From: a virus
Direction: 5' to 3' (one strand)
IMG/VR virus record: IMGVR_UViG_3300021197_001909
Coordinates: 1-20,956 of that record
DNA: 20,956 bases
A model generated the notes under the pieces. That model had not been told where the DNA came from. It saw only the letters and a program-made list of their open reading frames with translations, and searched no databases. Shown piece by piece: positions 2,321 to 20,956 of this stretch. The first letter of the stretch is position 1; each line of letters starts with the position of its first letter. The translations under genes were made by a program, and so were the position numbers.

Positions 2321-2826
2321 TGGGAAGTCTGAAATCAGATATAGAGGATGTATTTGTTAATGCTTCTGGTATAACTCCTGACGAGAATGGAAAACTTGAT
2401 AAAGGTAACATTCCCAGCTTGGCAGAAGGTATAGCGTTAGCTGTAGAGCGGTATATTAAGAGTTTAACCTTTAATATAACATCTATGGATGCTACGGTAA
2501 TAGTAGATGAAATAAAATTTTTAAAGGATGTGGATATAGATTTAACTGGTGTGGGACATCCGGGTACGGTGGGACCAGCTGTTGCACCCCCATCACCCCT
2601 TATAAATCTCAAGCTACCCGCTTTGCCTCCTACTGGTAAGATAAAAAGAAACACAGTATTTAAGAATGGTATGAATGTAGAAGCAAAAGGAAAGGCTTAT
2701 CTTGGTAAAGCAGCTTCGGCAAAAGTTCAGCTGAAGGACCCTATTTATGATAGAACTAATCAGTATAGTAGAAATGCTGAAGTAAAACTTAATCCAGATA
2801 AAAGCACTATTAATAAGGCAACATAA
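2320..2826 (+). CDS. Conserved-looking small baseplate-operon protein, unknown
   Basis: 168 residues. Residues 1-45 are helical (LKSDIEDVFVNAS, then LAEGIALAVERYIKSLTF). Residues 50-75 are beta-like. Residues 78-110 are a Gly/Pro-rich linker containing AVAPPSPLINLKLPALPPTG. The C-terminal 55 residues are basic and polar. I do not recognise the family. It starts on a TAATG overlap with the preceding gene and ends on another with the gp25-like gene, so it sits inside a tightly coupled set. The GGGA at 2312-2315 could serve as a close ribosome site. By position, immediately before gp25, a small tail or baseplate assembly protein is a fair guess, but nothing in the sequence proves it. Confidence 0.7.
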   Translation: MGSLKSDIEDVFVNASGITPDENGKLDKGNIPSLAEGIALAVERYIKSLTFNITSMDATVIVDEIKFLKDVDIDLTGVGHPGTVGPAVAPPSPLINLKLPALPPTGKIKRNTVFKNGMNVEAKGKAYLGKAASAKVQLKDPIYDRTNQYSRNAEVKLNPDKSTINKAT

Positions 2827-3269
2827 TGGCAAGAAGAGATCTCACAATACAGCCGCTGATAGAAGACAGAACGGAAAATATTTTTATTGGTTTAGAATAT
2901 CCTCTAAAGAGAAGTGAAGGCATTGAGGGATATTTTGAATCTACCAAGACCACCATACAAGCTGTAAAAAATAATATTAAGTTATTATTATCTACGGATA
3001 AGGGTGAGAGATTAATGCAACCTCAACTTGGAATGGGTTTAAAAAAATATTTATTTGAACAAGTTACCGATGAAACTAAAATTGCTATAGAGAACGATAT
3101 TATTGATACTTTTGAACAATATCTTCCTTTTGTTGAAGTGAAGGATTTGAAGGTTCAAATGCTACCTGATAGCGTAGGTTCTAGAAACACTATGAAAGTG
3201 ACTGTACTTTTTAACATAACAAAGGATCCCAATTCATTGGAATCTGTAACTGTAACACTAGGAGACTAA
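2826..3269 (+). CDS. 25: Baseplate wedge subunit, gp25/GpW family
   Basis: 147 residues, close to the usual length of the family (T4 gp25 is about 130). Residues 25-60 give the helix that packs in the wedge core. The family signature follows: a short LLLST turn, then KGERLMQPQLGMGLKKYLFE at about 59-78, with GER at 60-62 matching the conserved G-E-R loop. The C-terminal half alternates helix (ENDIIDTFEQYLPFVEV) and strand (MKVTVLFNITKD), as expected of the gp25-like fold. This protein attaches the sheath to the baseplate and binds the gp6/gp7 core in T4. The start overlaps the previous stop (TAATG) with AAGG 7 bases upstream. Only one base separates it from the gp6-like gene, the normal partner. 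Confidence 0.92.
   Translation: MARRDLTIQPLIEDRTENIFIGLEYPLKRSEGIEGYFESTKTTIQAVKNNIKLLLSTDKGERLMQPQLGMGLKKYLFEQVTDETKIAIENDIIDTFEQYLPFVEVKDLKVQMLPDSVGSRNTMKVTVLFNITKDPNSLESVTVTLGD
3260..3264 (+). promoter_or_regulatory. Ribosome binding site that fixes a GTG start
   Basis: AGGAG lies 6 bases before the GTG at 3271. An in-frame TAG at 3259-3261 means nothing further upstream can be the start. The next in-frame ATG comes about 48 codons later and would remove the conserved N-terminal wedge region. GTG is therefore the start of the gp6-like gene. Confidence 0.8.
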
Positions 3270-3270
3270 G

Positions 3271-5382
3271 GTGCCATATACGGATCAAGACTTCAAAGAA
3301 ACTAATGTAAATTACATTAACAAAGACTTCAATACAATAAAGAGTTCCTTGATTCAATACGCTAAGTCTTATTTTCCCGACACATATAGAGATTTTAACG
3401 AAACATCACCTGGTATGATGCTTCTAGAAATGTCCGCATATGTTGGTGATGTATTGTCTTTTTACATGGATCAACAATATAAAGAAATGATGTTACCTTT
3501 GGCTGAAGAGAGACGTAATGTAGTGACGCTAGCCAAGATGTTAGGATACAATGCAAAAACTTCAGTACCAGCTTATGCTGTATTGGAAGTAACACAAACG
3601 GTTGGTTCTTTGGGAGATGGAGCATTTCCTGATTACAGCGAGGCGGTATCCATTGAACCTGGTATGCAGGTACAATCATCATTATCTTCAACTGTAAAGT
3701 TTGAATCATTGGATGTGATAGACTTCTCAGTAAGTTCATCAGCTGATCCACTTCCCATACAAAGTGATTTTAATGATGAGGGTATAGCTACTGGATATGA
3801 TCTCAAGAGATCAGTTACTGCTATTAGCGGTGAGACAAAATCTAAAAGTTTTCCAGTAGGAGCTCCAGTTAAATTTTTAAAACTAAACCTACCTGAAAAA
3901 AATGTCGTACAGATTATTTCAGTACATGATAGCAATGGAAACAAGTACCACCAAGTAGATTTTTTAGCACAAGATAGAGTACCCATTGAGACTCATTATA
4001 CATCTAATCCTAATAGAAGTGATGCTTATACGTCTTTAGAAAGTGGACAAGACGTGAGTACGGTTCCCGTTCCATACACCTTGGAATTTATAAGAACTTC
4101 TAAACGATTTGTAGTAGAGAACGATTTTGAAGGAACTACGAGTGTGGTATTTGGAAACGGAATACTACGTTCTGGTAAAACAATACAAAGTGGTTTTATA
4201 CAATCCGATCAAGCAGGAATTACGGTACCGGGTCAAGTACAGAGCATTCAAGCAGGTATTGATCCACTATTAGGAGATGAATTTAGTACGTTAGGTGAAA
4301 CTCCATCCCACACTGAGCTTACAGTAAAGTATAGAGTAGGTGGAGGATTGAATTCAAATGTAGTAGCCAACGACTTATCTGTAGTAACAAATAAAATAGG
4401 AGCTCCAGGCAGTCCCAGCTTAACATCAGCTACGTTATCCGTCACAAATCCAGAACCAGCTAGGGGTGGTGCTGCAGAGGAAACTTTACAAGAGATACGA
4501 GAGCGAGCTGCTGCATTTTTTACCACACAGAATAGATGTGTTACTAAGAGTGACTATGAAGCTAGAATATTAGGGATGCCGGCTAAGTTTGGTAATCTTG
4601 CTAAAGTGTATGTGGAGAGAAGTTCCGGAAATACATCACAGCTTATAGAAATCGTACGAAATGCTGAAGTAGGCATACAAGCTAAATATGATGTTGGCGC
4701 ACCTCCGGACAGAGAAAACTTTAACGACTTTTATCAAAAAGTTCAAAATGCATTGGAAGTTATTCAAAGTGGCGTTATACCCACTATTGAGGTATACACG
4801 CTTAGTTATGATAGAAATAAAAATTTAACAGAAACACCAGCAGATCCAATAGGTGTAAATCTTAAAAATTATCTAAACGAGTTTCGTATGCTTACTGATG
4901 AAATAGTTTTGAGACTTACTAGAGAATCTGGAGGTGGGTACATTGTAAATTTTGGTGTTTATTTTGATGTGGTAGCCCATAGAAATGCCAACAAGGCAGA
5001 AATAAAACTAAAGTGTATAGATAAAATTAGAAATTATTTCCAAGTAGATAAAATGCAATTTAGACAACCCATTTACGTTAGTAAGTTAGAATATGAGCTC
5101 ATGAACATAGATGGAGTGTATTCAGTAAATTATGTCTGTATATCACAGGGTCCTAATTATGAATTACAACCTGGAGTATCCGTGAGTACGTTTGGACCTC
5201 TATATACGTATCACCACGTAAACAATTCATGGCAGGTAGATGACTCTACGGGTCTGACTAATTATGGATATAAATTTGACTTTGAGCAATCACTTAATCA
5301 GGGGGTAATACAACCATCAGCAACACCCTCCGTTTTTGAATTAAAAGATCCAGAACAAAACATAAAGGGAGCTGTTAGATAA
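3271..5382 (+). CDS. 6: Baseplate wedge protein, gp6/GpJ-like
   Basis: 703 residues (T4 gp6 is 660). The N-terminus has the strongly conserved wedge pattern: YINKDFNTIKSSLIQYAKSY at about 15-34, then DFNETSPGMMLLEMSAYVGD and SFYMDQQYKEM to about residue 73, followed by NVVTLAKMLGYNAKT. The middle (about 90-370) is beta-rich. Residues about 400-450 carry a GAAEETLQEIRERAAAFF helix and the TKSDYEARILGMP motif typical of the Baseplate_J/gp6 class. The C-terminal third includes the helical hairpin and FQVDKMQFRQPIYVSKLEYE. gp6 dimers form the ring that holds T4 wedges together. The start is GTG, fixed by AGGAG and an upstream in-frame stop. The stop overlaps the next ATG (TAATG). The sequence appears complete and undamaged. 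Confidence 0.92.
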   Translation: MPYTDQDFKETNVNYINKDFNTIKSSLIQYAKSYFPDTYRDFNETSPGMMLLEMSAYVGDVLSFYMDQQYKEMMLPLAEERRNVVTLAKMLGYNAKTSVPAYAVLEVTQTVGSLGDGAFPDYSEAVSIEPGMQVQSSLSSTVKFESLDVIDFSVSSSADPLPIQSDFNDEGIATGYDLKRSVTAISGETKSKSFPVGAPVKFLKLNLPEKNVVQIISVHDSNGNKYHQVDFLAQDRVPIETHYTSNPNRSDAYTSLESGQDVSTVPVPYTLEFIRTSKRFVVENDFEGTTSVVFGNGILRSGKTIQSGFIQSDQAGITVPGQVQSIQAGIDPLLGDEFSTLGETPSHTELTVKYRVGGGLNSNVVANDLSVVTNKIGAPGSPSLTSATLSVTNPEPARGGAAEETLQEIRERAAAFFTTQNRCVTKSDYEARILGMPAKFGNLAKVYVERSSGNTSQLIEIVRNAEVGIQAKYDVGAPPDRENFNDFYQKVQNALEVIQSGVIPTIEVYTLSYDRNKNLTETPADPIGVNLKNYLNEFRMLTDEIVLRLTRESGGGYIVNFGVYFDVVAHRNANKAEIKLKCIDKIRNYFQVDKMQFRQPIYVSKLEYELMNIDGVYSVNYVCISQGPNYELQPGVSVSTFGPLYTYHHVNNSWQVDDSTGLTNYGYKFDFEQSLNQGVIQPSATPSVFELKDPEQNIKGAVR

Positions 5383-6518
5383 TGCATTATAGAATTTTTT
5401 CAACAGCAGATACGTATATCAATAGTGGCTCCAATTTGATTACGGGAGAAACATTTAAAGATCAAAATTTTGGTCGAGATGAAATATTAGAACTCAAGAA
5501 GGTATATGTTAATAACGACTTTGGGTATCAAACTAGAGTTTTAATAAACTTTCAAGGTCCAGACTTTTCTGAGATTAGTCAGTCCATAGTAAACAAAACA
5601 ATTACTTCGCCTAAATTTAAATTAAGATTATTTGAAGCTAACGGTACAACTGATGTATCTACAAATTATTCTCTAGGAGCATATCCAATATCATCTTCAT
5701 GGGATGAAGGTATTGGTAGAACCTCAGATTCACCCAAGACGACTACTGGATGTAGTTGGGAAAATCGTTCTTATTATGCCGGAGCTTCTCCAGTAACGTG
5801 GTCGCATGATGATGGTTTAGCAAGACATGGAGTATATTTTTACACGGGAAGTGGTTATGAAGCCTCACAATCATTTACATATGCATCACCCGATGTCGAT
5901 ATGGATGTTACTGATATTGTGAATAGGTGGTTAGAAGGTTCTAACAACAATGGATTTTTAGTAAAGTTTAGTGGTAGTCACGAAGAGGCTGCACTATCAG
6001 ATGGAACTATAACTACTGGCGATCTTAGATTTTTTAGCGGTCAAACTAATACAATCTACGCTCCAGTATTGGAAGTTCAATGGGACGATCACTTACCAGC
6101 TACCGGTTCAAATACAGGTAGTTTATTACCAGTTACTATGAGTGGTCTAAATGATATGATTGTAACAATGAAAGGTCTCAGAGAATCATATAGAGACACT
6201 GAGAGAGTAAAGTTCAGAGTTCAAGCTCGCCCAAGACATATACAAAAAACGTTTACAACTTCAGTACAAACGTTGACTGGATCATTCATACCAGAGGGTA
6301 GTGGGTCATATAGTATTGTTGATGTAGCAACAAATGAAACAGTAGTTCCTTTTAGTCCATATACATCAATGAGTTGTGATGATACGGGAAATTATTTTAT
6401 TCAATGGATGAATGGTTTTTATCCTAACAGAAAATATAAGATACAATACAAATTAAATTTTGATGATAATCAAGAAGCGATCTATGATGATGGGTTTGAA
6501 TTCATTGTACGTCAGTAG
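5382..6518 (+). CDS. DNRLRE/CBM96-like virion adhesion protein
   Basis: 378 residues. Residues 1-235 follow the DNRLRE pattern (now grouped with CBM96 carbohydrate-binding modules): DTYINSGSN, then NFGRDEILELK, then RVLINFQ, a KFKLRLFEA strand, SSSWDEG, then DMDVTDIVNRWLEGSNNNGF and a final APVLEVQWDD. This is a jelly-roll fold associated with surface adhesion and polysaccharide binding. Residues about 240-378 are a second, beta-rich domain (KFRVQARPRHIQKTF; a Y-rich stretch near the end) that could anchor the protein to the baseplate. No signal peptide is present, as expected for a virion protein. It directly follows gp6 on a TAATG overlap with AAAGGGAG 10 bases upstream. A receptor-binding or baseplate-decorating role is inferred from fold and position. 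Confidence 0.7.
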   Translation: MHYRIFSTADTYINSGSNLITGETFKDQNFGRDEILELKKVYVNNDFGYQTRVLINFQGPDFSEISQSIVNKTITSPKFKLRLFEANGTTDVSTNYSLGAYPISSSWDEGIGRTSDSPKTTTGCSWENRSYYAGASPVTWSHDDGLARHGVYFYTGSGYEASQSFTYASPDVDMDVTDIVNRWLEGSNNNGFLVKFSGSHEEAALSDGTITTGDLRFFSGQTNTIYAPVLEVQWDDHLPATGSNTGSLLPVTMSGLNDMIVTMKGLRESYRDTERVKFRVQARPRHIQKTFTTSVQTLTGSFIPEGSGSYSIVDVATNETVVPFSPYTSMSCDDTGNYFIQWMNGFYPNRKYKIQYKLNFDDNQEAIYDDGFEFIVRQ

Positions 6519-6527
6519 GAGTAAGTA

Positions 6528-7796
6528 ATGGCTGAATCATTCGGAAGAGGTTTTGTGACCGGTCAAAATAACCGGGATAGAAAACAAGATCCTGATTTCA
6601 AAGCTATGCAAGAGGATAGAAAAGTAGCTCTTGAGAATCAACGTGCAAGAGATCAGTTAGCTTTAGAAGAATATCTAGAGATGGAATATGATCCATATGT
6701 ACCTCCTCTTGTAGATTTAAGTAGTGGTGAAATAGAGGATCCACCCATTGCACCTATGACAATCACACCCACTACAGTAGCACCTCCAACTGAACCAATC
6801 GTGTCAACTATTAATGAAGTTGTCGAAGAACCTTTAGATGATGAAGGACTACTAACTGAACCAGAACCTGTCCAGGTGGTAAAATCTCCAATGAGGATAA
6901 ACGAACCAATACAAGTGAGGGATTTCTCTACACCTCAATTGATATCAGAGATAACAAAGCGATCAAGTGATCAAAAAAACCTATTGGGGTTGAATCCCGT
7001 GAGGACGACAACAACTCAACCAAGCACTCCCCCAATCACAATAACTATACCAGATGCACCACCATCCACAATTCAAAGTTTGGGTGGAGGTTTTATTGGT
7101 GGTGTTGGAGGAGCACTACCTACGCCTGGATGCCTAGATCCCAGAGCAGATAATTACAATCCAAATTCATCTAGGGAAGATGGCTCGTGTGTGTTTACAA
7201 TTCCTGGATGTATGGACCCAATAGCGTACAACTTTTCGGGAGAGTATTCAGTTCAACTAAATAACAGTGGCTTATATACTATTGTTGGTGCAAATGAGTC
7301 TGACGGATCGTGTAAATATTTTGATTATGGCTGTTTTCAACAAGATGCCGTTAATAACACATGTACCAATACGGATCTAATACCTCAAATCTCATCTGAT
7401 GGATATGAAGTGTTATCAAAACACTCAGACGAATCACTTAGTAAAGTACGTCTAGTGGCAACTAGTGGAAATTTAGATACTCTATCCTTGATATCTAACA
7501 TGTCGGGTACTGAAAGATATAATTATTTACTTAACAACTATGTAGAAATGACAGATACCAACTTACAAAATAAACAACGTGTATTTAACATACAAGAGGT
7601 AGGAGAGGATCCTACAACACAATCACCTATATTGGTTATAAACCTCATGCCAGCTTCAACTCAAGGAGCCGGATCATTTGTCGAAAATCTTAAAAATGTG
7701 AGGGATTCAAGACGAGGACCAAAGGATTCAAGACGAGGACCAAGGGATTCACGACGAGCACTAAATGCAACTCGAGGAGGTAGCTACAACGTATGA
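6528..7796 (+). CDS. Cys-repeat structural protein with Pro/Thr linker and basic tandem-repeat tail
   Basis: 422 residues. Residues 1-52 are a charged helix. Residues 53-200 are a Pro/Thr/Ile-rich, probably extended linker ending in a Gly-rich GGGFIGGVGGA hinge. Residues 201-221 are a complete copy of the GCxDxxAxNYNxxA..DGSC repeat, and 227-262 a second copy widened by about 15 residues. A further Cys pair follows (YGC, NNTC). Residues 285-390 are a compact mixed domain. Residues 392-412 are three tandem units built on DSRRG, giving a strongly basic tail. AGGAG lies 6 bases before the ATG. The stop overlaps the next start (ATGA at 7793-7796), and the next protein continues the same repeat family. 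The linker plus Cys-repeat layout suggests a fibre or adhesin-like virion protein; the role is inferred. Confidence 0.65.
   Translation: MAESFGRGFVTGQNNRDRKQDPDFKAMQEDRKVALENQRARDQLALEEYLEMEYDPYVPPLVDLSSGEIEDPPIAPMTITPTTVAPPTEPIVSTINEVVEEPLDDEGLLTEPEPVQVVKSPMRINEPIQVRDFSTPQLISEITKRSSDQKNLLGLNPVRTTTTQPSTPPITITIPDAPPSTIQSLGGGFIGGVGGALPTPGCLDPRADNYNPNSSREDGSCVFTIPGCMDPIAYNFSGEYSVQLNNSGLYTIVGANESDGSCKYFDYGCFQQDAVNNTCTNTDLIPQISSDGYEVLSKHSDESLSKVRLVATSGNLDTLSLISNMSGTERYNYLLNNYVEMTDTNLQNKQRVFNIQEVGEDPTTQSPILVINLMPASTQGAGSFVENLKNVRDSRRGPKDSRRGPRDSRRALNATRGGSYNV
7128..7313 (+). repeat. Two copies of a 21-residue Cys-paired repeat (second expanded)
   Basis: Copy one covers 7128-7190 (residues 201-221) with G-C, D, A, N-Y-N and E-D-G-S-C at the conserved places. 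Copy two covers 7206-7313 (residues 227-262). It keeps GCMDPIAYNF at its start and SDGSC at its end but has an insert of about 15 residues between. Each copy has one Cys near each end, suggesting a disulfide or metal-bound loop. Confidence 0.8.
7701..7763 (+). repeat. Three 21-base tandem repeats coding a basic DSRRG tail
   Basis: Units at 7701-7721, 7722-7742 and 7743-7763 share the core GATTCAAGACGAGGACCA; the first two differ at one base and the third is diverged. They add three seven-residue units around DSRRGP near the C-terminus. High DNA identity between units one and two points to recent slippage or unequal exchange. Confidence 0.85.
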
Positions 7797-10700
7797 AATT
7801 AAGTATTATATCCTGTATAGATGATGGTTCCTGCTACTTTAATCCAGGGTGCACCAACAATGCTTTCTTAGAATTCTACACTCAAGGTTACGTAGCTGAT
7901 TATGACGATGGGTCTTGTTCCCAAGCTGTAGTGTTTGGGTGTACAAATATTGATGTGCTAGAGTTTAATCCATTTGCTAATTTTCAACGAGATGGTGACT
8001 GTGGAGCCACCACTCCACTAATACAAGGCTGTACAGATAGAAATGCTTTAAATTTTAACAACTTGGCAAACAGAGATAATGGTACTTGTTCGTATATAGA
8101 TCAAGAATTTGCCGCTGGTATTGCAAGAGAAAAAGAAAACATAGCTGGGATATTGTCCAACTTACTGGTGAAGCATGCTGAAGAAATAAAAACTGTCACA
8201 CAAACTACAAATTTATCAAGTCTACAAAAGACAGTGAAAGCGGGAACTATACAACGAGGTAGAGAGTCCACGGATAAACTATTGCTGTATCAATCTGAGT
8301 ACAAAAGTAACTTGGATGAATCACGAGATGTGGTGCAGCAGATATACGACAAAATGTATCCTAATGGGGCCAATCCCAACACCACGGCTGCAGTTGTTGA
8401 TCCACAATCATTGAGATTTGAATTTTTTGATAAGTCGGATCAAGAGGGAGGTGGTACCTTCATAAGAATTATTTTTGGTCTATCACAAAGTACTTTAGAA
8501 ATAGACGTACAGGCTATATCATCACACTTAAACCAATTTGTTGATATTCAGGAAACATTTAGACCTATAGATCCCGATAAAGCTAAGACGGTATTAGATG
8601 ATACTATATTTGAATTGTTACCTCCCACTACAAGTCGTCAAGAAAGAATAAATAATTTCTTTGCAGAATATCAACAACTACGACCACCAGTAGTACCTGT
8701 AGATACTGGGGCTGTTATAGATGCAGACGAAGATGGTGTAACAGATACAATCGATCCTAATGAATCAAACAACTACAGCTCGCTATACGATATATCAAAC
8801 ACAACGAATCAAGCTGCAGAAGAAAACAAATACATTACATGGCAACAATCCAGTGAAGATGTAGACAATGCCGACAAATCTCTTGAGTGGCTAAGTAATG
8901 ATATAGTGAGCAACTTCTTTCCACAGAGTCAGCCCAGTATCAGCGTGGAGGATACTAGACCTGAATATGAATCTACATCTCAGGGTTATTTACAAATAAG
9001 AAATCTTAATCAGGGTATAGTAGTACGAAGCCAAACTGGCAATGATGTAGGATTGATAGGAAACAATCCAAGCGATCCTGTGTGGAGACGTGAAGGATTT
9101 ACAATATCAATGTGGGTAAAATTTTTAGATAAAGTATCATCTGGTACACTATTTAACTTTGGTAATCCAATTAGAAATAACTCACCATACGGTTTTAGAT
9201 TAGAAACCTATACACTGGGTCGAGATGAATTAGCCAGTACGGGAAACGGAAAGACCTTTGGTGAGGAATCTTATGACAGGGGTATGAACTTATTTCCCGG
9301 CGATGAAACAAGAGCAAGATTTGTAAGACTACTCGTTAGGGACGAAAACAATCTTCTTAGAGATTCACAACATGGACATTACTCTGGACAAAATAATAAC
9401 TCAGGTTTAAATTTTAAAAAATCTAATCCTGAAGAATTTGCGGCGGCGTTATATGACTTTGAAAATAATCAACCCGTTAGGAATTATCAAGAACAGGGTT
9501 TGCAGGATGCATACCAACCAGCATTAGGTTGGGACTCGGAGAAGTGGTTGTTACCATACACTACCATACCCGTTAAATTAAATGAATGGTTTCTTATAGT
9601 AGCAAATTATGATCCCACAAGAAATGAAGACCATTCAGTACCAACAGTTGATCCGGATTACTGGAAGTGGAAATGTTCAGAAAGAATCCTAACGGAAGAT
9701 AATAGTAACACATATGTATGTGATCCTGATTCGTATACTAGTGATAGCAACAAGGGGTCTAAACTAAAAGTAGAAGTGATAGGCCGTTCCGAACTCTTAC
9801 GAGGTCTTGGATATAAGATAGGAGAGGAACCAGAAGAACTAGCCGATACAGCAGTTACAGTAGATACGGTTACTGGGGAAACTTCCAATAGTCCACCTCC
9901 TCCATTGAATTTGGGAGGCTGCTTAGCTCCTACAGCTACTAACTATAATCCAGATGCAACCTTTGAGGATGGAACGTGTATATTTCCAGATCCCAATGCT
10001 ACCGCTACGATAAGTTTAGATGGACTAGCAGCAACATTTAATTCAGAAAATACTTCAGAATTATTGACTCTTGGAACTCCTGGTGTGTATTATAACACTA
10101 ATGGCATTTTAGTATCAATAGATTATTTTGATTCAACAACGACCAAATCTATAATTACAATTGGAGAACTTGATCTTGGTATGGGAACATATGTTAATAA
10201 CAACACTGTAACATTTGACTCGCCTCTACCCGAATCGTATAGAGGTAAAGAAGTGTTTGCTCGTCAGGCTATGTCATTGGGACAACCTACTTTATTGAGA
10301 ATAGAAAACATTGGCGGTGGTGAAGATGGTATAGAGGTAGATGGAACACTTCTAGATTTTTCTAATGGATATGCAGTCAACGTACCAGTCGTAACCGGTC
10401 AAGAACTAACTATCCGTCCAATACCAAATGGAGATAATGATTACATGTTCGGACAGACTTCCACAACAGGCATCAACAGAGGAATAAATATTGAAGGTGA
10501 ACGAGGAATGTTGATCAGTAACAATGTGGAAGAAATAACAATATTAATTCCACCGACAGATCTAGATAACAATCCAGTAACCAATAGTGTGGATTGGGGT
10601 AAAGCTACTATTAGTTTTACACCTGCAGAGTTTGAAATATCTTTTCCCAACATAGATGATATTCCCAACCAAGCTCAAAATGCTATTGTAGAAAACATAA

Positions 10701-11257
10701 GTTTAAATTTTACAGTTATCAGTCCTCCTCAAATTGAAGGCTTTGGACCACTTGCAGCAAATGTACCCGGTGAATTACCTACTTTGATAGGTTTGGGTGA
10801 AGCTGATATTCAACTACAAGAAGGACAAACTACAATAACTGTTGAACAAACTTTACTACCCAAGACATTTACTGTAGAGACAACTAAACAACATAACATC
10901 AATACTAATAATCAAACCTTTATTACTACCGACATAGATCCTATAAGCATTAGAACAATTACAATTGAGGATTTAGCTCCAACGGATTCAGTCATACCAA
11001 TCACATTAGATCTAACTGCAACACGAGATATAGTAGATGAAGTAACAGAAGAGGTACAGGAAATGGAAGAAGAAACACAACAAGAAGATGTAACGATTCC
11101 AGATCCCGAGCCAGATCTAATACCCGGATGTACGGACACGCTAGCTATTAACTATAACTCATTAGCTACTGTCGATGACGGAACTTGTCAGTATGATAGT
11201 AAACAAAAGTCAGATAAGAACCTACCAAGAAGACAAAAGAAAACTAGAGGTTACTAA
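7793..11257 (+). CDS. Giant Cys-repeat protein with LamG-like and calcium-loop regions
   Basis: 1154 residues. The N-terminus opens inside a repeat: only the second half (C8 to C14, CIDDGSC) is present. Full copies follow at 19-42, 49-70 and 79-99. Residues 103-300 are helical then mixed. D310, D312, D314, D318 and D321 in DADEDGVTDTID match a thrombospondin type 3 calcium loop. Residues about 398-667 look like a LamG/concanavalin-type jelly roll (GFTISMWVKF near 436; NEWFLIVANYD near 597) with an inserted loop carrying C628 and C643. Another repeat sits at 709-729, then beta-rich domains to about 1080, an acidic stretch, a final repeat at 1112-1132 and a basic tail ending RRQKKTRGY. An in-frame TAG at 7781 makes the ATG at 7793 the first possible start. 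Likely a large adhesive virion protein. Confidence 0.7.
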   Translation: MKLSIISCIDDGSCYFNPGCTNNAFLEFYTQGYVADYDDGSCSQAVVFGCTNIDVLEFNPFANFQRDGDCGATTPLIQGCTDRNALNFNNLANRDNGTCSYIDQEFAAGIAREKENIAGILSNLLVKHAEEIKTVTQTTNLSSLQKTVKAGTIQRGRESTDKLLLYQSEYKSNLDESRDVVQQIYDKMYPNGANPNTTAAVVDPQSLRFEFFDKSDQEGGGTFIRIIFGLSQSTLEIDVQAISSHLNQFVDIQETFRPIDPDKAKTVLDDTIFELLPPTTSRQERINNFFAEYQQLRPPVVPVDTGAVIDADEDGVTDTIDPNESNNYSSLYDISNTTNQAAEENKYITWQQSSEDVDNADKSLEWLSNDIVSNFFPQSQPSISVEDTRPEYESTSQGYLQIRNLNQGIVVRSQTGNDVGLIGNNPSDPVWRREGFTISMWVKFLDKVSSGTLFNFGNPIRNNSPYGFRLETYTLGRDELASTGNGKTFGEESYDRGMNLFPGDETRARFVRLLVRDENNLLRDSQHGHYSGQNNNSGLNFKKSNPEEFAAALYDFENNQPVRNYQEQGLQDAYQPALGWDSEKWLLPYTTIPVKLNEWFLIVANYDPTRNEDHSVPTVDPDYWKWKCSERILTEDNSNTYVCDPDSYTSDSNKGSKLKVEVIGRSELLRGLGYKIGEEPEELADTAVTVDTVTGETSNSPPPPLNLGGCLAPTATNYNPDATFEDGTCIFPDPNATATISLDGLAATFNSENTSELLTLGTPGVYYNTNGILVSIDYFDSTTTKSIITIGELDLGMGTYVNNNTVTFDSPLPESYRGKEVFARQAMSLGQPTLLRIENIGGGEDGIEVDGTLLDFSNGYAVNVPVVTGQELTIRPIPNGDNDYMFGQTSTTGINRGINIEGERGMLISNNVEEITILIPPTDLDNNPVTNSVDWGKATISFTPAEFEISFPNIDDIPNQAQNAIVENISLNFTVISPPQIEGFGPLAANVPGELPTLIGLGEADIQLQEGQTTITVEQTLLPKTFTVETTKQHNINTNNQTFITTDIDPISIRTITIEDLAPTDSVIPITLDLTATRDIVDEVTEEVQEMEEETQQEDVTIPDPEPDLIPGCTDTLAINYNSLATVDDGTCQYDSKQKSDKNLPRRQKKTRGY
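7814..8089 (+). repeat. N-terminal array: one half plus three full Cys-paired repeats
   Basis: The half repeat is at 7814-7834 (CIDDGSC). Full copies lie at 7847-7918, 7937-8002 and 8027-8089, each starting G-C-T-[ND] or G-C-T-D and ending D-[DNG]-G-[STD]-C or close to it. The third, GCTDRNALNFNNLANRDNGT plus Cys, is nearest the consensus. Spacing is about 30 residues. Confidence 0.8.
9917..9979 (+). repeat. Isolated internal Cys-paired repeat
   Basis: Residues 709-729 of the giant protein read GCLAPTATNYNPDATFEDGT plus Cys, a near-perfect consensus copy. It separates the LamG-like region from the downstream beta-rich domains and may act as a rigid spacer. Confidence 0.85.
11126..11188 (+). 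repeat. C-terminal Cys-paired repeat
   Basis: Residues 1112-1132 read GCTDTLAINYNSLATVDDGT plus Cys, directly before the basic C-terminal tail. The same arrangement of repeat then basic end closes the preceding protein more loosely. Confidence 0.85.
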
Positions 11258-13395
11258 TGATCAGCTCTAGACCATTTCAAGATGATGAGCCAACTCGACT
11301 CAAGCAGGGAATAGGAGTAGATGATCAGCGACCTAAACTGGGTTTGTATTTTGGATCTAATGATGAAATAGAGTATGGTGTAACTGTTAGTAATGAGTCT
11401 CCATATAGTACATTTCAAGAGTACTTAAAACAAGAACAAATACAACTGAGTAGTTTTTTTTCTAGCGATAATGTTGGCACTAATGATCTATACTTGCAGA
11501 AGATTGGATCATCTTGGCCTAACTGGCCACCAGAGCATCACTTCGTACCGGATGTTCAGGTCCGAACTAGACGAGGAGGTTTTGAAACTCCGCCACTACA
11601 ATATTATGATTCTAGTATTCAAGAACAAGTAGATGGCTTTACAGCAAACAGAGCTCCCACGGATGTAATTTTTAATTTTTATCCACGACAATGGAACACT
11701 ACGACACAAGACAGTAGATTAGTAAGTGAATTAAATGAACGAGAAGTTATAAACGACACATCACGTTACTACATAATGGATGTAGACTGGGGAGACGATT
11801 CTCCTCCATCATACAAAAGCACTCCAATTAAAATTGGTGGAACGGTAAAACATTTTTACAAAAAACCTGGATTGTACAACATAACCGGATACATGTTTAA
11901 GCGAACTGGGGAACCCTCGAAGAGAGTTAATTTATTAAAAACTAAAGCTCTTGTAACGAGGACTAAAGGACCCGGGTCAATAGGTAAGTCTAGGGGTCTG
12001 ATCAGAAATACACAATGGCCCAATAATCCCGGAGAAACCGACTACGTTATCCAACTTACAAAAATAAATAAAACGGATAATTATTCTATTTATTTAGATG
12101 GTATCAAGCCAGGTAGAGACTATACGTTTTCTGTTTGGGCTGCCGTACCAAGGAGCCTCACTAATAGAGCCATCTTTAGAAGCAGGATTTACGATCACAC
12201 ACCAGGTGATACTGTATTTACGGGTGAGAGTGATTGGTACTCTGATACATTTGTAAAAGTTATAGATAAATTTAATGATGGATATTATACCTGGGAGAGA
12301 TTATCCATAACGAGAACTGCTCCAGCTAACGCAACTGGTACTTGGATGATAGAATTAGCATATGGTGATACCTCGACATATAAGTCAAAGGGTCAATTTT
12401 TCTTCACTGGCTTTCATCTCGAGCAATCAGAAGTACAATCTTCACATTCACCTATATACTTTAAGAGGTTTTCACTTAACATACTGTTAAGCGACAACTC
12501 AAGCACCTTTAATGAATTTCCTCAACTGGGAGGTAGAGACTATACTTTTTTTCCTTACCCAGCTACAACCCCCATAGTAGGAGGAATAAATAAAAATTCT
12601 CTATATTATAAATCCATATCTAGATTGGCTGGATATCAAAGTTCTGGAGTCGTGGATGAACTATCTTTTTTATCCTATGGGGATAAGATACGAGCACAAG
12701 CAGAGGGTGTAAAGGTATCTGAGAAATTTGGTAAGCTGACAACTATACAACATTTTGATAATTTACCTGAACACAATGGATTCAAACTAAAGAAGAGCAC
12801 CACGGGTGATACACTATACGGACCTTCAGAATTAGGAGATGGTATTACTAATATCAACGTGGGTCAATTGAGAGTGTTCACGACAGGAAAAAAAACAATT
12901 GAGGATCTCTTAGGCATTCCAGATGATGCAAGAGTTCCCGGCAAGTCTTCATACTATAAAAATATTATACCGGAAGAATATAGCATAACGTATAGAACCG
13001 GAGTAACAATTCAAGATGGAGATGTAGTTGGTATAGATGCCCTTGCAAGTCAATATTGGCTAAATGACTATTATTATCCAGTACTTCCTAAGTTTAGCCA
13101 GTATGGTAGAGAAGTAGATGGCAGCGTACAATCTGATGGTGATGGAGAAAGGACTCCACTACCAAAGGATAATATACCTTGTTTGACCAATACAATTAAT
13201 GATCCAGATCTACTAATTGATATTGACACAGAAGAAATAAATGACAGTGTACTGAGAGATCGCTCTGGTACAGGAACCGTTCCCATTATATTTGAGGATT
13301 ACAAGTTAGATGTAAACGAAGACGATCAGATTGAAAGATTTCCCCTCACACAAAAGATCACAATTGGCACTAGCGAACAAATGCAGGCTCTATAA
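11257..13395 (+). CDS. PKD- and CBM-like virion protein, paralogue of the next gene
   Basis: 712 residues. Residues about 165-225 look like a PKD-type Ig fold: MDVDWGDDSPP at 174-184 and HFYKKPGLYNITGYMF at 199-214 supply the WGD and H-Y...G-Y marks. Residues about 255-395 resemble a CBM4/9-type jelly roll (IYLDGIKPGRDYTFSVWAAV; WERLSITRT; FFFTGFHLEQSEV). From residue 425 a C-terminal module begins (GGRDYTFFPY, PIVGGINKNS, LRVFTTGKKTIEDLLG at 538, SGTGT at 670). A counterpart closes the next protein, without the CBM-like block. AGAGG lies 6 bases before the ATG, which overlaps the upstream stop (TAATG); the stop overlaps the next ATG in the same way. No signal peptide is seen. A glycan-binding baseplate or fibre protein is inferred. 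Confidence 0.7.
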   Translation: MISSRPFQDDEPTRLKQGIGVDDQRPKLGLYFGSNDEIEYGVTVSNESPYSTFQEYLKQEQIQLSSFFSSDNVGTNDLYLQKIGSSWPNWPPEHHFVPDVQVRTRRGGFETPPLQYYDSSIQEQVDGFTANRAPTDVIFNFYPRQWNTTTQDSRLVSELNEREVINDTSRYYIMDVDWGDDSPPSYKSTPIKIGGTVKHFYKKPGLYNITGYMFKRTGEPSKRVNLLKTKALVTRTKGPGSIGKSRGLIRNTQWPNNPGETDYVIQLTKINKTDNYSIYLDGIKPGRDYTFSVWAAVPRSLTNRAIFRSRIYDHTPGDTVFTGESDWYSDTFVKVIDKFNDGYYTWERLSITRTAPANATGTWMIELAYGDTSTYKSKGQFFFTGFHLEQSEVQSSHSPIYFKRFSLNILLSDNSSTFNEFPQLGGRDYTFFPYPATTPIVGGINKNSLYYKSISRLAGYQSSGVVDELSFLSYGDKIRAQAEGVKVSEKFGKLTTIQHFDNLPEHNGFKLKKSTTGDTLYGPSELGDGITNINVGQLRVFTTGKKTIEDLLGIPDDARVPGKSSYYKNIIPEEYSITYRTGVTIQDGDVVGIDALASQYWLNDYYYPVLPKFSQYGREVDGSVQSDGDGERTPLPKDNIPCLTNTINDPDLLIDIDTEEINDSVLRDRSGTGTVPIIFEDYKLDVNEDDQIERFPLTQKITIGTSEQMQAL
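12529..13392 (+). repeat. C-terminal paralogous module, copy 1
   Basis: Residues 425-712 of the first PKD-bearing protein. Landmarks in order: GGRDYTFFPY, PIVGGINKNSLYYKSI, LRVFTTGK, SGTGT, DYKL. The same landmarks occur in order in copy 2 at 16269-16829; this copy is about 100 residues longer because of extra sequence between landmarks. Confidence 0.75.
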
Positions 13396-16849: not shown

Positions 16850-19800
16850 ATGGCAAAGCTAAAATACAATTACACTCAAGATAAACTGCAAGAAATTCAA
16901 GCGGCTGGTGATTCTAATGTAGGACTAAAGTTTAATCCTATATCAATGGGTAGTGGAGGACCAGGTCACTTTGTTAGATTATCTGTTTTTGATAGTTCGG
17001 ACAATTTTGTCCGAAGCTTTCTCACCAATGTATCCAATGAGGGTGTACCGGTTATTTATGGATCAAATGCATCCACTCCCACTATTTATCAAAGTCCTCT
17101 TTCACCAGATGGTAAGCCAATACTTGCTGGAGTTGTATCGGCGGGTGGTGTAACGGTTGATCCTGTAGGAACGTTATCAGCTATAAATTTTTGTAATGGG
17201 GAACAAGCCGATGTTGTTGATTCGCAACTTATAGCATCTAATGCACAAATATTGGGTGGAGTGAATCAAATATCTTACTGGGATGATGGTTGGGTAGTAG
17301 AACAACGTGGTGTCATGATACCATCAGCAGTTTGGTCAAATATAACATGCATGAGTGTAGGAACAACCGACTATGAAGTCATAGGATCTCCTCAGTTAAA
17401 CATCTACAGAACAATTAATGATGATAATGTAAATTTTTACTTTAAACCTACGGAAGCACTCTCATCAATAATTTTACCAACGGGAGATTATAGTCTACAG
17501 TTTGAGTTTTTGCGTAGCACGATAGACGTGCTTGCTAGTAGTATCGTCAATCCTAGATACATAATCAGAGAGATATCACCTAGCAGAAAAGAGATCCGGA
17601 TAGGTCCTGGATCAGATGGACCAATACCTTTTGTTCTTAACAACTCAACGCAAGAGGGACAGTTAGGATTCCAACAAACATTTAAAAATTTACTAGAAAG
17701 TTCTTCTGATCCAACTGGGGTCTATAAATTTGATTACGTGGTTGGACTACCTAAAGGTAGATCATTACCTGTAGTGAATTATGAATTTGATAATAGATCG
17801 AGCACATCTCCTACATTAATCATAAAGCTGGGTGAAGAATTACCCGCTGATATAGTGGTATTAAATCAGATCAGTATTGATCAACAAATTTTTACTACAC
17901 AAACTGAACAAATATTTTACGAGTCTGATCTTCACAGAGAACAACAAACAGGAGCTGGCTTAGATGCACAACAATTTGGAGGCTTTTCTCAAGTAGAAGT
18001 AAGTGAGCAAATTAATAGTGTGGCTGAAGATCCTTTTCAAAGTGTAGCGGATCTTACTGGATCTTTGGTGGACACTTCAATATTAAGTTGGGTTAATTCT
18101 GGTAGTGGGTTTGGCGTTGATATTAACTTAAATATAAATTACAACGATTTTACAAATCACACCTTCTTTGGTTCAGCAGCATCAAAATTAGACAACTTTA
18201 AAAATAAACTAACTAATATAGAAAACCAATTGAGCAGGATAAGTCAGTCATTATCAAGTAGTTTTGTTAGTATGGATGGTGACTCAACATCACTAGTTAA
18301 ATCAAGAAAAACTTCATTTGAAGAAATACAACGGATCAAAGATACATTTACTCCATATGAAAGATTTTTATATTATGACTACCAAAGTAACAGCTCAGCA
18401 TCAGCACCTGGTATAGGAGCTAATTTGGCTCACTCTAAACCAGTTACTGGTAGTTATACACAATTAACAAGTTATGGAGGATTCCCGCTAGTATACAAAC
18501 ATTCAGCTCCTGGAGCAGATGATGGCACTAGTGACTCACAACATAACGGCTTAGATTTGTTTAGAGGAAAATACAAAGCGGAAGACAAACCGTTCTTTAA
18601 TTATAGTGGTTCATTATTTTTAAGTTTCTTATTAAAGGGTGATCATGATATAGGTGACTTCACGTTAGAAAATATTAACACGAGATATGATGAGTTTGAA
18701 AAGGGTAAATTACCCAATACAGCTTTAGGTAGTGGTTCTATTTTATCCGAGACGGTCACTGGCTCTGAATATAGACGATATATTTTTGAAGCTTCACAAT
18801 CTTTTTGGAGACCATATAGACAGCAACGACTAAACATGTACAATTGGAATGATAATGCATGGAGTGACAATGTAGATTTTTATCAAATAGTATCTTCCTC
18901 AGAAGCACAGTCATCAGCATCTAACTCACCAAGTGCAAGCAATCCAGATTCATATGCTATTCAAGCTGCGGGTCAGTTTTACAAATCTATAGGTACTACA
19001 TTCTTAACCGGTAGTACAGCATTATTTTCAGGATCGTTTATGCCTTCCGGTGAGCTGTTTAGAGTTTCAGCTTCCTTGAGAACAAGAGGAGGAGCCGTAG
19101 CTCCATCTGGTATAGCAGCTAACGTTACTTCATCGTTTATAACGGATGTAAGATTAACAACAAAAAATCCTATAGATGTGTATCCGTTTCATAGTATTTA
19201 CAAAGTTAGTTCTACAGAATTTTCAAGTTGGTTTGATGGTCTTAGAGCATCAGCATCAGCGTATGATGATAATAACATACACGCATTAGTCAACAATATA
19301 CCAACAGCAATTAAAGAAGACTCTCAATCTACAGAGTTATTAAGTTTTATAAAATTAATGGGTGAGCAATATGATCTTCTAAGAAATTATATAGAAAATT
19401 TTGAGAAGCTATCGTCTAGATCCTATAACAGTCAAGACGGCGTACCTCCTAACCTACTACCTATTTTAGGTAAGAATCTTGGTTGGGATTTCACTTCACC
19501 ATTTACAGGTAGCTTATCTGAATACTTTGGTTCATCTCAAGAAAATATACGAGTGGGTGGTAGATCTGTAGAGGAAATAACTACTAATACGTGGCGTAAG
19601 ATTCTAAACAATTTGGTACGAGTTTATAAAACAAAGGGTTCTGCAGCTAGTATATCTGCGCTATTGAATACTTATGGATATCCAGCGGATATTTTGACCG
19701 TGGCGGAGACGGGAGGTTCTTTAGAAGAACACAATCCTTCTATTATTTCTAATGATGTATCCACATTACTTTCTGGATTATCTGGTCAAGCTGATAACGT

Positions 19801-20956
19801 AAGTTTTATACAAACAACTGAAGAGTTCTTCTCATTTATAATTAACAACGATCCTAATAGAACTTTATCTCTCGATTGGTACACCAACGATGCGGATAAT
19901 ATTGAATCTTTGGAATTCATTATTAATCCAAACCCATCTTCCAACAATCAAGTTATTTTTGAAAATAGTGGTTCTGGAGGAGAAACGCTATGGGACATAA
20001 GATTAAAAGCTGGATCGTCTACAGAAACACAGGGTCAGATAGAATTTAGAATTAACAATTCTCCAAATGGTTCTGGATCTATAGAAGACAATGCAGTATC
20101 AATGTCTGTTCCTACATCTGGATATAAGAGTGGTAATGATTATTGGAATGTAATGCTTTCAAGAGTATCCAGTAGTGTAAGTGGGTCTGGTGTACAAGGA
20201 TACAAACTATTTACAGGTTTACAGTCAGAAGATAAGATAGTAGAATTTAACTCAGTATCTATGTCTATAAGTGGCACAGCTGTTATTAATGAAGTTAATT
20301 ATAACATTAATTCTAACTGGTTCTCTACCGGTAGTAGAGCTAAAACTGATAATGGAAACTTGTTAGTGGGACGCACCTACACGGGCTCTATAGCAGAAAT
20401 ACGAACATGGCAAACACAATTGAGTGCAAGTAAATTTAAGCAACATGTATTAAATAAAAAAAGTACAGTAGGAAACAACGTCACGGCTTCCTTTTCAGAA
20501 TTGGCGTATAGGTTTGCTTTGCAAGAAAATTTTACAACTGGATCTGCTATGAAGATAGAAGATGCTAACCCTAATAAAATTAAAGATTATTCATTTACGC
20601 TACTAGCGGGCTCTAACTCTGGTTCAGTATTCTATGATAGTGATTTAATAACATTAAATAAATTTAGTATAAGAACTGGAGGTACTGATCAACAGGATGG
20701 TAATAAAGTACTCATTAATCCTAAAGAAACGGTAGTTGGTAATTTAGATATAAATCAAACTAGCGTACGGACCATTTATGATAAAACTCACGAAAACAAA
20801 AGAAGTAGGTCAAACAAACTTAATTTAGTTAAGTCTCCTTCTAAAGTTTTAAATAACTTCATAATTAACTCACTAGCTGATTATGACGTTTCTGGAAAAT
20901 TTGCGGATCCTGAAAACGTATTTAAAGATTCTTATGAGGAGTTAAATAAATTTAGA
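16850..20956 (+). CDS. Very large baseplate protein (5' part, runs off window): GpI/gp7-like segment plus LamG-like domain
   Basis: I read this frame codon by codon: it is open from ATG to the window edge, giving at least 1369 residues with no stop. An in-frame TAA at 16844-16846 makes ATG 16850 the first possible start. Residues 1-440 are beta-rich. Residues about 445-475 are a coiled-coil-like helix (KLTNIENQLSRISQSL), followed near 499-511 by TFTPYERFLYYDY. Residues about 800-945 are helical and end in RVYKTKGSAASISALLNTYG (924-943), the type of segment found in P2 GpI-like tail proteins and their T4 wedge counterpart gp7. Residues about 995-1200 look like a LamG jelly roll (LSLDWYTND; GSIAEIRTWQTQLSASKF). 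No clear ribosome site precedes it. A gp7-equivalent wedge scaffold is a reasonable inference but not proven; T4 gp7 is about 1030 residues. Confidence 0.6.
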   Translation, partial: MAKLKYNYTQDKLQEIQAAGDSNVGLKFNPISMGSGGPGHFVRLSVFDSSDNFVRSFLTNVSNEGVPVIYGSNASTPTIYQSPLSPDGKPILAGVVSAGGVTVDPVGTLSAINFCNGEQADVVDSQLIASNAQILGGVNQISYWDDGWVVEQRGVMIPSAVWSNITCMSVGTTDYEVIGSPQLNIYRTINDDNVNFYFKPTEALSSIILPTGDYSLQFEFLRSTIDVLASSIVNPRYIIREISPSRKEIRIGPGSDGPIPFVLNNSTQEGQLGFQQTFKNLLESSSDPTGVYKFDYVVGLPKGRSLPVVNYEFDNRSSTSPTLIIKLGEELPADIVVLNQISIDQQIFTTQTEQIFYESDLHREQQTGAGLDAQQFGGFSQVEVSEQINSVAEDPFQSVADLTGSLVDTSILSWVNSGSGFGVDINLNINYNDFTNHTFFGSAASKLDNFKNKLTNIENQLSRISQSLSSSFVSMDGDSTSLVKSRKTSFEEIQRIKDTFTPYERFLYYDYQSNSSASAPGIGANLAHSKPVTGSYTQLTSYGGFPLVYKHSAPGADDGTSDSQHNGLDLFRGKYKAEDKPFFNYSGSLFLSFLLKGDHDIGDFTLENINTRYDEFEKGKLPNTALGSGSILSETVTGSEYRRYIFEASQSFWRPYRQQRLNMYNWNDNAWSDNVDFYQIVSSSEAQSSASNSPSASNPDSYAIQAAGQFYKSIGTTFLTGSTALFSGSFMPSGELFRVSASLRTRGGAVAPSGIAANVTSSFITDVRLTTKNPIDVYPFHSIYKVSSTEFSSWFDGLRASASAYDDNNIHALVNNIPTAIKEDSQSTELLSFIKLMGEQYDLLRNYIENFEKLSSRSYNSQDGVPPNLLPILGKNLGWDFTSPFTGSLSEYFGSSQENIRVGGRSVEEITTNTWRKILNNLVRVYKTKGSAASISALLNTYGYPADILTVAETGGSLEEHNPSIISNDVSTLLSGLSGQADNVSFIQTTEEFFSFIINNDPNRTLSLDWYTNDADNIESLEFIINPNPSSNNQVIFENSGSGGETLWDIRLKAGSSTETQGQIEFRINNSPNGSGSIEDNAVSMSVPTSGYKSGNDYWNVMLSRVSSSVSGSGVQGYKLFTGLQSEDKIVEFNSVSMSISGTAVINEVNYNINSNWFSTGSRAKTDNGNLLVGRTYTGSIAEIRTWQTQLSASKFKQHVLNKKSTVGNNVTASFSELAYRFALQENFTTGSAMKIEDANPNKIKDYSFTLLAGSNSGSVFYDSDLITLNKFSIRTGGTDQQDGNKVLINPKETVVGNLDINQTSVRTIYDKTHENKRSRSNKLNLVKSPSKVLNNFIINSLADYDVSGKFADPENVFKDSYEELNKFR

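Follow-up and report, generated by a model that had tools for sequence, protein, structure and literature searches.

A CBM96-fold protein encoded directly after gp6 is probably a co-inherited subunit of a contractile-tail baseplate wedge

Within a 20,956-nucleotide stretch of viral DNA (IMG/VR record IMGVR_UViG_3300021197_001909, positions 1-20,956; hereafter the window, of which positions 3,271-6,518 are displayed), we analyzed the gene at 5382-6518, which directly follows a gp6-like baseplate wedge gene and encodes a two-domain protein of 378 residues. We refer to it as the DNRLRE gene, after a family matched by its N-terminal domain. Linkage to gp6, shared descent with gp6, conservation, modular inserts in relatives, the predicted folds and a published precedent lead us to favor, at a probability of roughly 0.6, the reading that this gene encodes a co-inherited subunit of a contractile-tail baseplate wedge with a CBM96-fold head (CBM, carbohydrate-binding module). 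The features at the locus that bear on this reading are the following.

2826-3269, plus strand: gp25-like baseplate wedge gene, 147 amino acids (PF04965, E 7.9e-12, 45.3 bits against a cut-off of 27.2; phrog_261, E 7e-23).
3271-5382, plus strand: gp6-like baseplate wedge gene, 703 amino acids, GTG start (phrog_10646, E 6e-29; phrog_219, E 2e-25).
5364-5371, plus strand: Shine-Dalgarno-like AAAGGGAG, read from the sequence, within the 3' end of gp6 and 10 bases ahead of the ATG at 5382.
5380-5384, plus strand: TAATG, in which the gp6 stop and the DNRLRE-gene start share one base, the A common to TAA and ATG.
5382-6518, plus strand: gene of the two-domain, probably baseplate-linked protein, 378 amino acids, ATG start (profile matches; structural model).
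5382-6089, plus strand: residues 1-236, predicted jelly roll with the DNRLRE/CBM96 fold (scores over the cut-offs of NF033679 and PF24517; VIA-align to 8wab_B and 7vbo).
5772-5861, plus strand: variable jelly-roll loop, residues 131-160, the least conserved block, where insertions in the family alignment reach 35 columns.
5982-6011, plus strand: second variable loop, residues 201-210 (mean majority frequency 0.30).
6111-6515, plus strand: predicted Ig/macroglobulin-like beta sandwich, residues 244-378, modeled separately, a candidate wedge-docking domain.

Both protein families matched by the gp6-like open reading frame (ORF), phrog_10646 and phrog_219, are named 'baseplate wedge subunit', and its Baseplate_J match lay below the cut-off (E 0.086). 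The ORF at 5382-6518 is not a chance one, because relatives of it are encoded at 27 viral-contig loci found in a single-sequence scan (at one of these, L029, the relative extends to residue 113 only, where the contig ends) and in at least 576 of 600 candidate stretches from a profile-guided scan (tblastn, E <= 1e-3; some of them repeat the single-sequence loci, and 80 loci were kept). The two-domain tail protein is shared by a broad group of phages, the majority of them uncultured. Searches of PHROGs with 23 family members gave no match, and plasmid records held no DNRLRE relative. As no relative was confirmed in bacterial or archaeal genome contigs either (36 pattern matches; one scan with two peptide patterns), a virulent lifestyle of the carrier phages is suggested.

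Linkage to gp6 was measured at 80 loci recruited with a gp6 profile instead of the DNRLRE protein, to avoid circularity. After excluding six loci (five with gp6 running off the contig and one with too little sequence beyond gp6), we found the DNRLRE gene directly after gp6 in 71 of the 74 that were testable, the exceptions being L148, with a 77-amino-acid ORF in between, and L125 and L128, where a fibre-like ORF comes next and the contig then ends. While 29 of the 80 loci lay on contigs of the earlier sets, the 51 new contigs gave the same picture, with the gene after gp6 in 42 of 45 testable cases. The direct coupling to gp6 proposed by the first-pass annotation is thereby borne out, and since most of the loci behind the gp6 profile had been identified through the DNRLRE protein, the linkage speaks for this gp6 clade and not for all gp6. 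Among annotated phages, 82 records matched gp6, six of them across 80% or more of the query, i.e., as full-length relatives of the window gp6, and these six are exactly the records that encode a DNRLRE protein: four of Flavobacterium phage immuto, one of Microcystis phage Mel-JY01 and the uncultured LR756508, together representing three lineages. The more distant gp6 carriers S-H34, LuckySocke and Paride have, by their annotation, other genes after gp6.

The N-terminal domain is predicted, from profile matches and from a structural model, to have the CBM96 beta-sandwich fold and to belong to the DNRLRE/CBM96 family. The DNRLRE profile NF033679 matched residues 23-232 (E 2e-12, 47.5 bits against a curated cut-off of 34) and the CBM96 profile PF24517 matched residues 6-109 over profile positions 6-87 of 164 (E 7.3e-7, 29.6 bits against a curated cut-off of 26), in agreement with the identity that had been proposed from the sequence. 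At a threshold of E <= 0.01 rather than the curated cut-off, DNRLRE was matched by 65 of 68 family members, CBM96 by 44 and a disaggregatase repeat by 7, the window protein included. An AlphaFold2 (AF2) model of the two-domain protein built from these 68 sequences (mean predicted local distance difference test score (pLDDT) 87.4; predicted template modeling score (pTM) 0.86) superposed by VIA-align on the chondroitin-sulfate CBM 8wab_B with Z 18.4 (168/176 residues, 2.4 A, 21% identity) and on the alginate CBM96 7vbo with Z 14.4 (167/182 residues, 3.2 A), followed by rows of Z 10.6 and less. Plain Foldseek placed chains of the Epf adhesin first, at TM-scores of about 0.2, and listed other sandwiches; the 8wab and 7vbo CBMs were absent from its best 50 matches. 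Against viral models, Foldseek returned three full-length matches (TM 0.80, 0.82 and 0.69), which carry no functional name. Within the protein, variation is concentrated in the loops at 131-160 and 201-210, and two relatives, L081 and L089, have inserts of about 105 and 165 amino acids near residue 150, seen as split hidden Markov model (HMM) matches. The recognisable conserved positions are sheet and core residues (N29, G31, R52, W107 and D171).

A boundary near residue 240, as previously proposed, is supported by the AF2 model, by structural matches that span either residues 1-237 or residues 255-378, and by a relative with about 240 amino acids inserted at this very point. This relative (L078) is the first of two tandem paralogues (4468-6414 and 6415-7515), and its extra residues lie exactly between the two domains; the insert looks LamG-like by eye and had no Pfam match at E <= 0.01. 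The C-terminal domain modeled alone gave a beta sandwich with a mean pLDDT of 84.6 and a pTM of 0.79. Having been called unrecognised by the first-pass annotation, it indeed found no match in the PDB by Foldseek at E <= 0.001, but its best VIA-align rows were macroglobulin and SKICH-type domains (Z 9.3, 97 aligned residues, 2.9 A). This resemblance indicates a common Ig-like arrangement and thus carries no functional hint; in its model the domain is a generic Ig-like sandwich, recognisable at the level of a common fold only. We also considered that it might be a module common to other tail proteins, and rejected this when a search with the domain alone at E <= 0.1 returned just the same six phage records that were found with the N-terminal domain. 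That the C-terminal domain binds the baseplate is plausible, making it a candidate docking module.

Both domains were on average conserved at least as well as gp6. Over 49 gp6-recruited loci, mean identity to the window was 39.1% for gp6, 39.5% for gp25, 42.3% for the N-terminal domain and 48.2% for the C-terminal domain; the N-terminal domain exceeded gp6 in 37 of the 49 loci, and the C-terminal domain exceeded the N-terminal domain in 36. Pairwise distances of both domains tracked those of gp6 across 107 loci, with Mantel r values of 0.864 for the N-terminal and 0.841 for the C-terminal domain, neither of which was reached in any of 999 permutations, and N-terminal identity stayed at or above 0.52 throughout the pairs with a gp6 identity of 0.6-0.8. 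Judged from these distances, the DNRLRE protein and gp6 share descent. A host-range adhesin would be expected to diverge faster than the baseplate core or to be exchanged, and neither was seen in the two domains; their conservation together with distances that follow gp6 fits a core part of the baseplate. Genes located beyond the DNRLRE gene were detected more rarely and at lower identity, the ORF starting at 7793, for example, in 14 of the 49 loci at 32.3%, a difference due in part to short flanks.

The resemblance to glycan-binding modules raises the question of a sugar ligand. Alginate binding by the CBM96 of TM6-N4, a module of the secreted alginate lyase Dp0100 (7vbo), is assigned to residues of a positively charged groove, namely Lys10, Lys22, Lys25, Lys27, Lys31, Arg36 and Tyr159 (PMC9971899). 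The window protein is like this module in its profile match above the cut-off and in a fold that superposes over 167 of 182 residues. It is unlike it in that the jelly roll is fused to an Ig-like domain, lies in a tail operon and is net acidic. The latter holds for the N-terminal domain in all 115 sequences (mean -12, range -21 to -5; -13 in the window), while the C-terminal domain is nearly neutral (mean -1.2, range -8 to +5). Because no sequence or profile search with this protein reached 7vbo, the alginate-binding residues cannot be mapped onto it, and hence the acidic charge weakens the case for a similar ligand but leaves it possible. The best structural match of the N-terminal domain, the chondroitin-sulfate-binding CBM 8wab, is likewise attached to an enzyme, a chondroitinase. 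Glycan binding by the N-terminal domain is a tentative proposition, to which we would give somewhat less than even odds.

In kind, the window protein has a published precedent, a wedge protein that carries CBM folds and attaches to host cells. According to the report on the Bacillus cereus myophage Vp4, its Gp119, termed 'baseplate wedge 3', contains CBM folds and decorates sensitive cells of B. cereus, and a CBM-less relative, Gp177 of Deep-Blue, showed no cell binding (PMC11406892). Gp119 resembles the window protein in being the product of the third wedge gene, numbered right after the gp6-like wedge 2 (Gp118), and in carrying CBM folds. It differs in having a CBM similar to family 16, an A511 Gp105-like N-terminal domain as its conserved part, and CBMs that are missing from close relatives such as Deep-Blue Gp177 (PMC11406892), whereas the jelly roll of the window protein is N-terminal and kept across the whole family examined. 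The domain of A511 Gp105 (PDB 6hhk) was neither among the listed fold matches of the window protein nor among its profile matches to PDB sequences. Closer relatives, with both domains and 32-34% identity, are QQO92077.1 of immuto and WWT39509.1 of Mel-JY01, which are encoded directly after gp6 and annotated as hypothetical. In T4, the wedge proteins gp7, gp8 and gp10 are encoded after gp6, and PHROGs profile searches gave no sequence relation between these and the window protein. In the open literature, as far as its texts were accessible, DNRLRE in combination with phage or tail led only to an unplaced ORF of Aeromonas phage BUCT551.

We suggest that the C-terminal Ig-like sandwich would dock the protein on the wedge core beside gp6, or on a direct partner there, and that the N-terminal CBM96-fold jelly roll would point outward, with its variable, insertion-tolerant loops on the far side. 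The jelly roll could then form a platform at the periphery that holds fibres, touches surface glycans broadly and with low specificity as the phage lands, or does both. We infer that the protein is present in the virion; being inherited together with the baseplate core, it has the look of a regular component of the baseplate and not of an adhesin that is swapped between phages. Several points weigh against this reading. The literature on immuto and Mel-JY01 yielded neither virion proteomics nor a structure for any member of the family, and no baseplate protein was among the listed fold matches of the C-terminal domain, by Foldseek or VIA-align. The higher conservation of the C-terminal domain is gone in distant pairs (at a gp6 identity of 0.3-0.4, the means are 0.38 for the N-terminal and 0.36 for the C-terminal domain), and the Mantel comparison was made without a fast-evolving receptor-binding gene as a control. 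In some relatives (L023/L024 and L078) an extra long fibre-like gene lies between gp6 and the DNRLRE gene. Moreover, Listeria phage A511, cited as the type of 'wedge 3', has a 3930-bp gene that follows its baseplate J-like gene and separates it from the short gene preceding gp106; as this gene order differs and homology to Gp105 was not detected among the matches listed, we regard the relation to wedge 3 as a likeness of role and not as membership.

Two other explanations keep the protein in the virion and part over what its head does. It might be a glycan-binding adhesin, whose CBM96-like head binds a host-surface polysaccharide and helps to set the host range. The DNRLRE/CBM96 profile match, a fold that closely matches those of two glycan-binding CBMs, the variable loops that tolerate insertions and the cell binding of the CBM-bearing Gp119 of Vp4 (PMC11406892) all speak for it. 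However, both domains co-evolve with gp6, show no signs of exchange and are conserved like gp6, which would be unusual for a host-range determinant, and the uniformly acidic N-terminal domain (-5 to -21) sits poorly with the positive groove described for alginate binding (PMC9971899), so that we consider an adhesin of this kind unlikely. The label of adhesion protein given by the first-pass annotation therefore stands for the DNRLRE/CBM96 head and is weakened if it is taken to mean an adhesin that binds a receptor, and co-inheritance and conservation shift the stress from an adhesin to a part of the baseplate that is inherited with it and bears a CBM96-fold head. Alternatively, the CBM96 fold could be a pure structural scaffold in a wedge or fibre-docking subunit without sugar affinity, as in Deep-Blue Gp177. 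Here the gp6-like conservation and co-inheritance, the acidic N-terminal domain, the confinement of recognisable conserved positions to the sheets and core, and the extra fibre-like genes that in some relatives are immediate neighbors of the DNRLRE gene are points in favor. Against it, the CBM fold and the loop insertions would be left as unexplained extras, and the DNRLRE signature is kept in 65 of the 68 scanned members. We hold such a scaffold to be a serious contender that falls short of being probable.

A further explanation places the protein outside the virion, as an assembly chaperone or accessory factor expressed from the wedge operon. Linkage and co-inheritance would look identical in this case, and proteomic evidence for the protein was not found; against it, two beta sandwiches of the kind found on cell surfaces and loop insertions as long as about 165 amino acids would be atypical of chaperones, and we consider this explanation very improbable. 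The reading as a co-inherited wedge subunit remains the one that we favor.

Turning to the surrounding sequence, the TAATG overlap, which the first-pass annotation took to make the DNRLRE protein the first one translated after the wedge core, is real but does not set this gene apart. The same -1 overlap occurs at 6 of the 11 junctions among the 12 ORFs taken as the operon, and for this reason we ruled out a special meaning; among relatives, it is present in 43 of 71 adjacent gp6/DNRLRE pairs. From its position 10 bases 5' of the ATG, the Shine-Dalgarno-like element AAAGGGAG is a putative separate start signal for the DNRLRE gene. Further downstream, two ORFs (6528-7796 and 7793-11257) contain two and four copies, by a simple pattern, of cysteine-rich repeats of the form GC(T/L/M)D..A.NYNP.A...DG(S/T/D)C and had no Pfam match, and the ORF at 11257-13395 gave a sub-threshold match to a gene transfer agent (GTA)/phage head spike fiber domain (25.9 against 36 bits). 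The last large gene in the window is the following.

16850-20956, plus strand: possible gp7/Tail_P2_I-like large tail gene, 1369 amino acids or longer, open at the 3' end of the window.

Its relative in L078 matched Tail_P2_I below the cut-off (E 0.0023, 18.2 against 20.6 bits), and the profile search with the window protein itself gave no Tail_P2_I match; judged by sequence, the ORF is a possible gp7/gpI-like wedge partner. The long fibre-like genes seen between gp6 and the DNRLRE gene in some relatives contain SGNISASG-type repeats and measure 878 to 2008 amino acids where complete (L023/L024, at 1958-7984 in L024; L078, 1828-4464; L070, 1-1464; L125; L128), and several of them have in common an N-terminus like 'NKVISSNFQKLL'. 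In L081, the gp6-like gene appears as two ORFs (1349-2797 and 2856-3458, of 482 and 200 amino acids), reflecting either a split gene or a sequencing error.

Wedge genes after gp6 are usually annotated as 'hypothetical' in uncultured phages, and as the present family lies nearly always beside gp6 in its clade, naming it provides both a marker and a hypothesis of function for many contigs. If the CBM96 head does bind glycans, carbohydrate contact would be a fixed function of the wedge, extending what is so far the single case of a CBM-bearing wedge protein, Vp4 Gp119. A more far-reaching idea, which we rate as improbable at present, is that the wedge holds a permanent glycan-sensing CBM96 domain next to gp6, i.e., a conserved landing sensor that is inherited with the core and separate from the exchangeable fibres. 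If true, such a sensor could couple contact with surface or matrix polysaccharides to the rearrangement of the wedge.

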